Below are positions 32,511 to 38,710 of a DNA stretch of 64,000 nucleotides, one piece after another. A model generated the notes under the pieces. It ran no database searches and was not told where the DNA came from. It worked only from the letters and a program-made list of their open reading frames with translations. Each line of letters starts with the position of its first letter. The first letter of the stretch is position 1. The DNA lies in contig NZ_JAUSCF010000035.1 of the NCBI RefSeq assembly GCF_030651625.1, positions 62,001-126,000 on the forward strand, in the 5' to 3' direction. The DNA is from Hydrogenophaga sp. GTDB lineage: Bacteria; Pseudomonadota; Gammaproteobacteria; Burkholderiales; Burkholderiaceae_C. Made by a program: the position numbers and the translations under genes.

Positions 32511-32535
32511 GGAATAAACCCGGGTGGCTGGCGTT
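32511..32535 (+). promoter_or_regulatory. ECF-type promoter for the DUF4956-VTC operon
   Basis: GGAAT (32511-32515), 16 bases, then CGTT (32532-32535) continuing GTG. The same GGAATA-N15-CGTTGT layout recurs at 35136-35160, and related ones at 38665-38692 and 38683-38710 beside the ECF sigma gene. Expected transcription start lies ~55 bases before the GTG start. Confidence 0.6.
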
Positions 32536-32597
32536 GTGTTGTCACGGAAACGTCATGAACCGCTGCGTTTCGCTTTCAACCCATCAGGAGCGCCCCC

Positions 32598-33191
32598 GTG
32601 ACCTTCCCCTTGTCTGCATTGCCCTACCTTGAACTGCTGGCCCGTTTCGCCATCGACCTGCTGGCCATGGTCTTGCTCGTCTTTGGCATGTACTACCAGC
32701 GCTACCGCGACAAGGAGCTGGTCACGGCTGCTGCGATGTTCAATCTCTTTGCGTTCGCCGTGCTCACCATCCTCTCCACGGTGGAATTCAGCATCGCCGC
32801 CGGCTTCGGCCTCTTTGCCATCCTTGCGCTCTTCTCACTGCGCTCCGAGCAGATCAGCAAGACCGAAATCACCTACTTCTTCGGCAGCATCTCCATTGCA
32901 GTGATCTGTTCGGTGCAGGGCACCACCCTGCCCTTCGTCTCGCTGGTGGTGGTGCTGATCCTGCTCGGCGCCTGGGTCATCGATCACCCTTCGGTACTGC
33001 GGTCGTCCGACGGCATCAAGCTCACGCTGGACAAAATCGACCCGCACGCCCTCTCCGACCCCGAAGCCATGCGTGCAGAACTGTCTTCGCGCCTGGGTGT
33101 GGAAGTCATGTCGTATCAGATTACCGCGTTGGACTACATCAACGACATGGCCCGCATCAATGTGTTCTACCGATCCAACCGGGCTGCCTGA
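32598..33191 (+). CDS. DUF4956 family membrane protein
   Basis: 197 residues, GTG start with AGGAG nine bases upstream. Three to four hydrophobic segments in the first ~130 residues ('FAIDLLAMVLLVFGMYY', 'LFAFAVLTILSTVEFSIAAGFGLFAILALFSL', 'LPFVSLVVVLILLGAWVI') are followed by a soluble tail (~140-197). 'FSLRSEQISKTEITYFFGSISIAV' is the conserved DUF4956 core. Members are repeatedly found beside VTC-domain proteins, and here the VTC gene starts one base after the stop. A role as membrane partner of the polymerase is inferred from that pairing. Confidence 0.85.
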   Translation: MTFPLSALPYLELLARFAIDLLAMVLLVFGMYYQRYRDKELVTAAAMFNLFAFAVLTILSTVEFSIAAGFGLFAILALFSLRSEQISKTEITYFFGSISIAVICSVQGTTLPFVSLVVVLILLGAWVIDHPSVLRSSDGIKLTLDKIDPHALSDPEAMRAELSSRLGVEVMSYQITALDYINDMARINVFYRSNRAA

Positions 33192-33192
33192 G

Positions 33193-34104
33193 ATGACCAT
33201 ATCGACCAACCCGTCCGCTTTGGAAATGCCCACGGCGCACCCTTGGCTGGTGGCACCTTTCGCCCCCATCTCGCTGGACCAGCTCAACCACAAGGCCTCG
33301 ATGCTGGAGCGGCTGGACAACAAATATGTGGTGCGGTCTGAAGTGCTGAAACAGGCCATCGAAGACCTCGTCACGCGTTTCGAGATCCTCGACATGGACG
33401 GCACACGTGCCTTCACCTACGAGACCTGCTACTTCGACGACGAAGCGTTGCACAGCTACTTCGACCACCACCAGGGGCGCCGCCGTCGATGCAAGGTCAG
33501 GGTGCGGAAATACACCGACGCCCAGTTGTGTTTTGTGGAGGTCAAACTCAAGGACAAGCGCGGGCTCACGGTGAAGAAGCGCCTGAAATACAGCCTGGAT
33601 AAATACGGAATGCTCGACGACAGCGCATGGAGCCACATCTGCCACTCCTACGAAGCCCTGTACGGAGAGGCCTTTCCCCACAGGCTGGCGCCGGTGATCG
33701 AAATGCGCTACCAGCGCATCACCCTGGTGGCACGCGAAGGAGGTGAACGCATGACCATCGACTGCCATTTGCGGTTTCAGGCCAATGACAGAACCTGCAC
33801 CACCGGTCCGGATGTGTTTGTGGTGGAGACCAAGTCGTCCAACGGGAACGGGGTGGCCGACAAGATCTTGCGCAGCCTGCACCAGCATCCCACCAGAAGC
33901 TGTTCCAAATACTGTGTGGGCATGGCAGCTTTGCAAAACGTGGATCGACACAACAAGTTCCTGCCTGCGCTGCGCAAGCTGGGGCCTGTCAAGACCATTT
34001 TTCCAAGTGTGAATGGCTTGAAATCAGCCCCGGTACAGGCGCATGACGAAGGCCAGACGGTCGATGCCCTGCCGCATCGGGACGCTTCGTTGCAGAATCC
34101 CTGA
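33193..34104 (+). CDS. VTC-domain polyphosphate polymerase-like protein
   Basis: 303 residues, a triphosphate-tunnel-type fold. 'ASMLERLDNKYVV' carries the family's conserved lysine, 'CKVRVRKY' and 'CFVEVKLKDKRGLTVKKRLKY' supply the basic and acidic tunnel residues, and 'VFVVETKSSNGNGVADKIL' is the C-terminal E-x-K strand. VTC4 relatives make polyphosphate from ATP; bacterial members are less well studied. The ATG follows the DUF4956 stop by one base. Both are preceded by an ECF-type promoter. Cytoplasmic or membrane-face location is expected. Confidence 0.82.
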   Translation: MTISTNPSALEMPTAHPWLVAPFAPISLDQLNHKASMLERLDNKYVVRSEVLKQAIEDLVTRFEILDMDGTRAFTYETCYFDDEALHSYFDHHQGRRRRCKVRVRKYTDAQLCFVEVKLKDKRGLTVKKRLKYSLDKYGMLDDSAWSHICHSYEALYGEAFPHRLAPVIEMRYQRITLVAREGGERMTIDCHLRFQANDRTCTTGPDVFVVETKSSNGNGVADKILRSLHQHPTRSCSKYCVGMAALQNVDRHNKFLPALRKLGPVKTIFPSVNGLKSAPVQAHDEGQTVDALPHRDASLQNP

Positions 34105-37305: not shown

Positions 37306-38624
37306 TTGGGCGGGGCACTGAGCAGCCCCCAGCCGAACATGGGGTCGCGCCCGCGCGCGCCAAGGTCGGTGGCTGTTGCCTGCAACGCCGTGCTGATGCG
37401 CTGCAGGTCTGTGGTGCCCTGGGCCCGCAGGACCGCCACGCTCGCGGTCACGAAAGGCGCTGCGAATGAAGTACCGGTGTGGTAGCCGCCTTCGCCTTCG
37501 GTGGGCGCGTACACCGACACCCCGGGTGCGGCCAGCGTGACGTGTTGGCCGCGCACAGCCTGGGGGTAGAGCCGGCGCCGGGAATCGACAGCGGTCACGG
37601 CAATCACTTGCGGGTAAGCGGCTGGATATGCGGGCCGGGCGCGCGGGCCGTCGTTGCCCACCGAGGCCACCACCAGGACATTGCGTGCCACCGCGCGTTC
37701 GATGGCGCGCTGCAACAGCCGGTTGGCGGGACCTGCCAGACTCACATTGATCACCTCGACCCGGAAGTTCACCAGCCAGTCGATGCCGTTGGCGATGAAG
37801 GCGGCCGATGTCATCTGCCGGCCGTCTTCCAGCAGCGCGAACACGTCTGCCGCGTACAGCCGGCTGTAGGGCAGCAGCCCAGGCACTGCGTGTGCACTGC
37901 CTGAGAGCAGGGCAGCCACCGCGCTGCCATGCCCGGTGTCTGAGCGCTGGCTGCCACCATGGAAGGAACGCGTGACCAGGCGGGCGCGAGCCACACCAGA
38001 TGCTTTCGGGCTCACAGCGGTATCGATCATGCCCACGCGCACGACCACCCGGCAGCGCTCGGTCTGGTCCACCGGCCAGCCCACGAGCCGGCGACCGTTG
38101 CAACGCTCGCCGGTGCATATCGCCTGCGTGAGCCGGTAGGTGTGGTTGAGGTCAAAACGGTCGGCTGCGACCTGGCTGTTGAGCGTGGCCACCGCCTGCA
38201 ACTCGCTCACGCCTGAGGGCACGCCAAACCGGGTGTAGTTCACGCCCAGCTGGCCCAGCGCCTGCGACTGGATGATGGTGTAGCCGCGCTGCACCACCGC
38301 CGCGATCTGGGCCCGCGTGAGGTCGATGCCGATCACCTCGCCACGCACCACCTCGGTGCCCTGCACGTTGTTGACCACCATGTTGATGACTGGCGGCTGG
38401 GACGAAGAGTCATCGTCATCGTCGTCGTCGTCGTCGTCGTCGTCGTCATCGTCGTCGTCGTCGTCGTCGTCATCATCTGCCCAAGCTGCAGACAGGCCAG
38501 CATCCGGCAGCGAAGGCCAGATGGTTTGCAGTCCTGCGGGCAGCAGCGCCAGCGCTGCGTACAGCATCACGATGTTCAAGGAGTGCAAAGGGGTCATCGG
38601 AACAGGCCCTAAACTGACAAACAT
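37296..38624 (-). CDS. Secreted subtilisin-like (S8) serine protease with a 23-residue poly-aspartate tract
   Basis: 442 residues. The N-terminus is hydrophobic ('MLYAALALLPAGLQTIW') and could be a signal peptide, followed at 50-72 by 23 consecutive Asp. The catalytic domain (~195-435) has the S8 triad: D201 in 'VGMIDTAV', H232 in 'DTGHGSAVAALLSG', S386 in 'GTSFAAP'. 'VASVGNDG' carries the oxyanion asparagine. An ATG 27 bases downstream is an alternative start. It is divergent from the ECF sigma gene, with which it shares a palindromic -35 region, and overlaps the toroid-like gene at its 3' end. Confidence 0.88.
   Translation of the reverse strand: MFVSLGPVPMTPLHSLNIVMLYAALALLPAGLQTIWPSLPDAGLSAAWADDDDDDDDDDDDDDDDDDDDDDDSSSQPPVINMVVNNVQGTEVVRGEVIGIDLTRAQIAAVVQRGYTIIQSQALGQLGVNYTRFGVPSGVSELQAVATLNSQVAADRFDLNHTYRLTQAICTGERCNGRRLVGWPVDQTERCRVVVRVGMIDTAVSPKASGVARARLVTRSFHGGSQRSDTGHGSAVAALLSGSAHAVPGLLPYSRLYAADVFALLEDGRQMTSAAFIANGIDWLVNFRVEVINVSLAGPANRLLQRAIERAVARNVLVVASVGNDGPRARPAYPAAYPQVIAVTAVDSRRRLYPQAVRGQHVTLAAPGVSVYAPTEGEGGYHTGTSFAAPFVTASVAVLRAQGTTDLQRISTALQATATDLGARGRDPMFGWGLLSAPPKCR
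38409..38477 (-). repeat. Trinucleotide (GAC/GAT) tract encoding 23 Asp
   Basis: Twenty-three successive codons, 18 GAC and 5 GAT, with no interruption by another amino acid. Runs of up to nine identical GAC triplets make it prone to replication slippage in multiples of three, which would alter tract length without breaking the frame. The scattered GAT codons suggest some age or selection. Confidence 0.95.
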
Positions 38625-38664
38625 AATTTTTCCGCCGCCAGTGCCAGCGGCATTGCTGGCAAAT

Positions 38665-38692
38665 ACAACGTCTTTGGCGGCCGGAATATTCC
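38665..38692 (-). promoter_or_regulatory. ECF-type promoter for the S8 protease-toroid operon
   Basis: On the minus strand GGAAT (38692-38688), 17 bases, CGTT (38670-38667) continuing GTAT. The -35 is half of the palindrome GGAATATTCC (38683-38692), whose other half serves the divergent sigma gene. Expected start ~35 bases before the protease ATG. Confidence 0.65.
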
Positions 38693-38710
38693 ATCGGCTC
38701 GCGCGTTATA
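38683..38710 (+). promoter_or_regulatory. ECF-type promoter for the sigma/anti-sigma genes (autoregulation)
   Basis: GGAAT (38683-38687), 16 bases, CGTT (38704-38707) continuing ATAC. It shares its -35 with the divergent protease promoter through the palindrome GGAATATTCC. The leader before the sigma ATG would be only about 12 bases, and no good ribosome-binding site is visible there. Confidence 0.6.

Follow-up and report, generated by a model that had tools for sequence, protein, structure and literature searches.

What could place a VTC-type polymerase operon, a protease with a long aspartate run and two surface lipoproteins under one regulator? The question is raised by a 64,000-nucleotide (nt) stretch of a Hydrogenophaga sp. 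genome (contig NZ_JAUSCF010000035.1, positions 62,001 to 126,000; hereafter the window), in which the gene for an extracytoplasmic function (ECF) sigma factor lies among repeated copies of a two-block, promoter-like motif. A preliminary description of this DNA had proposed that four such copies define a local sigma regulon around a polyphosphate locus. We consider it about 80% probable that this sigma factor, a member of the ECF26 group by our assignment, drives five units, its own operon among them, from promoters of the form GGAATA-N15/16-CGTT(GT), and that the VTC-domain protein encoded by one of these units probably makes polyphosphate.

A search of the window for GGAAT-N16/17-CGTT returned five matches, against 0.62 expected, and none of 100 dinucleotide shuffles reached five. 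Four are the sites already described, confirmed in place: the predicted ECF26-type promoters P1 (32511..32535, plus strand; GGAATA-N15-CGTT continuing as GT), which precedes a DUF4956 gene; P2 (35136..35160, plus), before the gene for a lipoprotein of 260 amino acids (aa); P3 (38667..38692, minus), before an operon that begins with an S8 serine protease gene; and P4 (38683..38707, plus), before the sigma operon. The fifth, P5 (51529..51553, minus), was overlooked in the preliminary description and precedes the gene for a 427-aa repeat lipoprotein. The claims that the four sites lie 20–60 bases from a gene start and that three of them continue as CGTTGT were likewise borne out: from motif end to start codon we measured 62, 56, 42 and 21 nt for P1 to P4 (and 52 nt for P5), and only the sigma promoter P4 deviates, with CGTTAT. 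The divergent P3 and P4 have a single palindromic −35 element in common, GGAATATTCC (38683–38692), the sole copy of this sequence in the window.

The motif is also rare in the genome as a whole (4.27 Mb, 39 contigs; G000). A genome-wide scan, which had been suggested as a check, found GGAATA-N15/16-CGTT six times and a mirrored control pattern once; five of the six copies are the window sites before gene starts, all inside 19 kb. The sixth lies antisense within a 618-codon frame that we take to encode a D-Ala-D-Ala-carboxypeptidase. For a fixed stretch of 19.1 kb, the chance of holding five of six matches is P ~1e-11, a value computed for a stretch that was picked after the matches were known. 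With one mismatch allowed in GGAATA-N15-CGTTGT the genome-wide excess is gone (11 matches against 13 for the mirrored control), and the regulon is therefore callable from exact sites only; the six extra matches coincide with reading frames, but the test used was lax and also counted in three of the four window sites to which it was applied.

To place these sites in a comparative frame, we used 67 congeneric genomes, the window's included, 15 of which hold a sigma orthologue (E<=1e-38). Fourteen of the 15 have the exact motif no more than 300 nt in front of the sigma gene, and the remaining genome, G083, has GGAATT-N15-CGTT there. A second copy faces away from the sigma gene in all 15, before an S8 gene in ten and before a hydrolase-like gene in five; the two divergent promoters use a common −35 element in G000 and G020 and separate ones in the other 13. 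In the sigma-positive genomes the motif outnumbers its mirrored control by 74 to 14, compared with 113 to 99 in the 52 others. The families that recur behind it, counted over the loci fetched (part of the motif hits on other contigs of sigma-positive genomes), are the sigma factor (14), S8 protease (10), the 260-aa lipoprotein family (6), DUF4956 (5), the hydrolase-like protein (5), an exported Ser/Asn-repeat protein (5), and the repeat lipoprotein, a DUF995-like lipoprotein and a small protein (2 each). Families seen once include those of a GGDEF-EAL protein (G090) and, separated from the motif by 107 and 225 nt, of a GT2 protein and a ManC-like enzyme (G086). Across 53 collected sites, T stands two bases after CGTT in 52 and G directly after it in 42, and neither base formed part of the search pattern. 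Left out of this set were L068 (the two sites with gene distances of 107 and 225 nt), L079, L081 and L082 (the latter two with no downstream gene found), L083 (whose downstream gene is homologous to a G086 gene) and L072 (which overlaps L071).

Two of the target families can be followed through the genus individually. The 260-aa lipoprotein family occurs in 6 of the 67 genomes, all of them sigma-positive and all with the motif (Fisher P 5e-5, kinship ignored). VTC-domain genes number 13, in 12 of the 67. The window's copy and four others at 67–71% identity form a clade whose operon has the motif before DUF4956 in five of five cases, a count that includes the window genome and G020, whose gene runs off its contig (four genomes by script); the eight remaining VTC loci (32–38% identity) hold no GGAAT-type match in about 3.6 kb each.

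The 167-aa sigma factor itself (38729..39232, plus) carries Pfam sigma regions 2 and 4 and appears to be an RpoE6-like member of the ECF26 group. We filed it there because, in a tree of 40 hand-chosen rows, it falls together with S8-linked sigma factors, in a group of 25 (support 100/98) to which none of the other included ECF factors from the genus belongs. This group holds the S8-linked sigma factors of S. psoraleae, of Aminobacter and of two VTC loci of Aminobacter's family. The S. psoraleae protein shares 51% identity with the window's and is encoded where a divergent S8 gene is also present; its S8 neighbour and near-identical promoter suggest that it is the RpoE6 orthologue. Traits of ECF26 are also seen in the window: five promoters with a −35 GGAATA and a −10 GT core, and a divergent serine protease gene. 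Directly downstream lies the gene for a putative anti-sigma factor (39244..40032, plus; 262 aa; NCBIfam NF052375, E 3e-11) with one probable transmembrane helix, placed at about residues 110–130 from a hydrophobic stretch that was judged by eye and stays under the script threshold.

The same arrangement recurs beyond the genus. In the 80 best of at least 554 sigma relatives taken from genome contigs, a set that repeats two or more of the congeners above, GGAAT-N16/17-CGTT stands no more than 250 nt upstream in 63, and the reversed control in none of the 80; an S8 gene is part of the locus in 39 of the 80 and is adjacent and divergent in 21. In Aminobacter niigataensis, the sigma gene, a divergent Asp/Ser-rich S8 gene and a DUF4956-VTC-phytase set stand side by side, with one motif preceding the S8 gene, one preceding DUF4956 and one close to the sigma gene's end (L153:10463-10487); the last resembles a possible internal RpoE6 promoter before ecfR6 of S. 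meliloti, as described in the accessible part of PMC6180224. Of 297 genomes from Aminobacter's family, nine have the DUF4956 clade, and GGAAT[AG]-N15-CGTT lies upstream in six (0.0008 per shuffled piece; the [AG] was admitted post hoc, with four GGAATA and two GGAATG). Three of the nine operons are both motif-bearing and beside sigma and S8 genes, and a phytase-like gene is present at all six motif-bearing loci, compared with none of the three that lack the motif. In a 398-genome sample of the phylum, the DUF4956 clade (E<=1e-30) was found only in the window's genome, G172 and G188; in G188 one phytase-like gene lies near a motif-less DUF4956-VTC pair. Judged by these genomes, operon and sigma factor are linked repeatedly, not always.

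Taken together, sequence and conservation support the promoters, the gene set and their co-occurrence. The earlier proposal of a local sigma regulon is strongly supported by the rarity of the motif, its conservation in the genus and its recurrence in Alphaproteobacteria, and needs revision: the regulon is wider, because of the fifth site, and its cargo varies. Its proposed corollary, that relatives keeping the genes should keep the motif, held for the sigma gene (15/15 with GGAAT-N16/17-CGTT), the lipoprotein (6/6) and the clade VTC operon (5/5), and failed for S8 in two congeners, G008 and G086.

Several observations weigh against this reading. The genomes compared are related to each other and do not count as independent. 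Upstream of the S8 gene, no motif is present in G008 or G086, where that gene is not beside the sigma gene, and in G072, at a contig end, there is only a GGAATC variant. The clade VTC operon was found in only 5 of the 15 sigma-positive congeners, several of the other ten being incomplete genomes, and the anti-sigma match falls below the cut-off of its model. Outside the genus, 17 of the best 80 sigma relatives have no upstream motif, and the exact motif precedes only 9 of the 39 S8 genes (11 with GGAAT; control 0), a count limited to what the exact pattern can detect; control of S8 genes by such a promoter is thus common but far from general there. The Aminobacter genome holds 17 motif matches (control 6), only three of them at the locus. 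In its family, three of the nine DUF4956-VTC loci lack the motif, and at three of the six loci that bear it no sigma gene was found within ~10 kb. All three DUF4956-VTC loci of G172 and G188 are without the motif.

The operon behind P1 comprises three plus-strand genes. The first encodes a 197-aa DUF4956 membrane protein (32598..33191; Pfam PF16316, E 6e-48) with five hydrophobic stretches; the second a 303-aa, polyphosphate-polymerase-like VTC-domain protein (33193..34104; PF09359, E 9e-33); and the third a 337-aa phytase-like esterase (34111..35124; PF13449, E 6e-33), probably exported, to judge from a hydrophobic N-terminal stretch. The VTC protein has both the Pfam domain and, in an AlphaFold2 model (mean pLDDT 84), the tunnel fold: the top 13 Foldseek matches are all yeast VTC structures, with 12–19% identity in the top alignments, and a PDB sequence search with the protein or with its 12-row alignment returned no match. 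It has no further Pfam match and no hydrophobic stretch, and no SPX or fused membrane domain is apparent. In the alignment of 12 bacterial VTC rows, 42 columns are invariant, including 13 Arg/Lys and E212. R103 and R105 are also invariant and, with E212, are candidate equivalents of the catalytic residues R264, R266 and E426 of Vtc4 (given in the accessible part of PMC9911596). The name 'polyphosphate locus' given in the preliminary description fits this predicted fold, and the protein may serve polyphosphate synthesis or export. According to the portions available of PMC9911596 and PMC10657179, the yeast system couples synthesis of the polymer with a channel in the membrane; in the window, the separate DUF4956 protein would be the membrane partner.

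We also considered that the VTC operon might be an accessory to a surface matrix or exopolysaccharide, not a polyphosphate maker, within a regulon whose task is envelope or matrix remodelling. In Gram-positive bacteria, pel clusters have genes for DUF4956, CotH and polyphosphate-polymerase-like proteins as neighbours (PMC7112168, accessible part), the motif precedes the GGDEF-EAL gene of G090 and, at the longer distances given above, the GT2 and ManC-like genes of G086, and the CsgG-like and repeat lipoproteins resemble surface parts. By contrast, a polyphosphate polymerase is the best match of the VTC model, and the invariant Arg/Lys residues and E212 point the same way. We regard a matrix accessory as possible, at odds clearly below even; it is also compatible with polyphosphate synthesis, and both may hold together.

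A further alternative is that a different ECF sigma factor recognizes the promoters and that the local sigma gene is one more target. ECF groups can overlap, as the RpoE6 and RpoE2 regulons do in S. meliloti (PMC6180224, in the part available), and the three motif-bearing VTC operons of Aminobacter's family at which no sigma gene was found nearby would suit this reading. We think it improbable: within the genus the excess of motif over control is limited to genomes with this sigma gene, and GGAAT-N16/17-CGTT precedes the sigma gene itself in all 15. Chance matches or an amplified repeat, to which about two background matches per genome in sigma-negative congeners and the one-mismatch result in G000 might be thought to point, were rejected as practically negligible on the shuffles, genome-wide rarity, clustering and conservation in the genus, and the spacer between the two blocks differs among the five sites, the shared palindrome excepted.

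On the preferred reading, control by the ECF26-group sigma factor encoded in the window, an envelope signal would free the sigma factor from its membrane anti-sigma factor. Free sigma would then transcribe its own operon, the divergent poly-Asp S8 operon, the CsgG-like lipoprotein, the repeat lipoprotein and the DUF4956-VTC-phytase operon. The sigma and S8 promoters would be mutually exclusive because they have the one −35 palindrome in common, so that polymerase may occupy them alternately, never both at one instant. The VTC protein probably polymerizes phosphate from ATP at the membrane, DUF4956 may anchor it or pass the polymer outward, and the exported phytase-like enzyme could trim polymer outside. 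In this scheme we infer the pairing of sigma factor and promoters, the signal, the polyphosphate product and its export.

The other targets are predicted envelope or exported proteins. The 260-aa lipoprotein (35217..35999, plus) has an LSGC lipobox, read by eye, and is CsgG/HfaB-like: its AlphaFold2 model (mean pLDDT 63, from a six-sequence alignment) matches CsgG best in Foldseek (4uv2, E 8.5e-5, TM 0.36–0.49 over the 4uv2 rows), Helicobacter HpaA-type lipoproteins score nearly as well, and there is a weak HfaB profile match (E 0.0013). No Pfam family was found in it at E up to 1, the CsgG domain included. The S8 protease (37296..38624, minus; 442 aa; PF00082, E 3e-31) shows the motifs HGS and GTSFA and 23 consecutive Asp residues, and its gene end overlaps the start of the gene for a 425-aa exported protein (36028..37305, minus), the 'toroid' of the preliminary description, in which no Pfam family was found; homologues of that protein adjoin S8 genes in congeners as well as on contigs from Lautropia and Competibacteraceae. 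The 427-aa secreted repeat lipoprotein behind P5 (50193..51476, minus), perhaps a beta-solenoid (weak match, E 0.035), has a 73% identical orthologue in G004, likewise with the motif.

The surroundings of these genes vary between congeners. In both G000 and G008 the regulon island (29286-41833 in the window) is flanked by an acyl-CoA-synthetase-like acetyltransferase gene and minCD, and the G008 island carries a DUF995-like lipoprotein and hydrolase-like, P-loop and ABC-type proteins. The same flanks with different cargo suggest that this slot is a stable part of the chromosome and that the regulon members in it can be exchanged; the gene for the repeat lipoprotein sits outside it. At L039:5820-9516, hydrolase-like, P-loop and ABC-type genes lie behind the motif divergent from sigma, with the hydrolase-like protein in this position in five congeners, and at L043:6380-6949 an exported Ser/Asn-repeat protein (SSSNSSSN) with relatives in five congeners follows the same motif. 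Separately, an AT-richer stretch directly before P1 (32295-32449) holds three DnaA-box-like sites, TTTTCCACA, TTATCCACA and TTATACACA, within 155 bp; the window has five such sites against 1.3 expected, a number reached by 2 of 100 shuffles.

A bolder extension, which we offer tentatively and consider unlikely as a whole, is an ECF26-controlled polyphosphate synthase-translocase of Beta- and Alphaproteobacteria, in which polyphosphate made by VTC in the cytosol and exported by DUF4956 would be displayed or secreted on demand, alongside poly-acidic proteases and surface proteins that leave through a CsgG-like pore. If true, bacteria would have an equivalent of the eukaryotic VTC complex, governed by a signal circuit of its own. 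Short of that, a conserved target operon with a recognizable enzyme gives the regulator a concrete, testable output, and the promoters offer a means of telling when VTC-type proteins come into use in some bacteria, a role on which we found little. The picture suggested is one regulator with species-specific envelope cargo behind near-identical promoters.

How much of this has a precedent? The preliminary description knew of no described system with these parts, which was too strong: S. meliloti ECF26/RpoE6 offers a match for the sigma factor, the type of promoter and the divergent serine protease. In the accessible part of PMC6180224, the ECF26 promoter consensus is given as GGAATA/GT, and the RpoE6-EcfR6/SMa0142 system resembles the window in its sigma and membrane anti-sigma factors, divergent serine protease and neighbouring targets, with a protease promoter GGAATA...CCGTT and likely autoregulation. 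The chief RpoE6 targets listed in that part are a glyoxylase, the protease and hypothetical proteins; neither a CsgG-like nor a repeat lipoprotein is named there, and no role could be defined for RpoE6. The word VTC is absent from the whole paper. In the searchable open-licence literature we found neither ECF26 control of a VTC-type polymerase nor anything on DUF4956 together with 'VTC domain'. Like the window's protein, yeast Vtc4 has the Pfam VTC domain and the tunnel fold, and supplies the top structural matches; unlike the eukaryotic complex, the window has a separate DUF4956 membrane protein and no apparent SPX or fused membrane domain. The CotH-PPP-DUF4956 accessory genes of pel clusters likewise place a polyphosphate-polymerase-like gene beside DUF4956, and neither an ECF sigma factor nor an S8 protease is mentioned in the available part of that account (PMC7112168). 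The curli secretion lipoprotein CsgG and the holdfast anchor HfaB are respectively the best structural and a weak profile match of the 260-aa lipoprotein, which differs from the CsgG family in having no Pfam match. The core of the system, an ECF26 sigma factor with GGAATA/GT promoters and a divergent serine protease, is thus already known, and what looks new is the content of the regulon: a VTC-fold polymerase with a membrane partner, CsgG-like and repeat lipoproteins, and cargo that varies between species.

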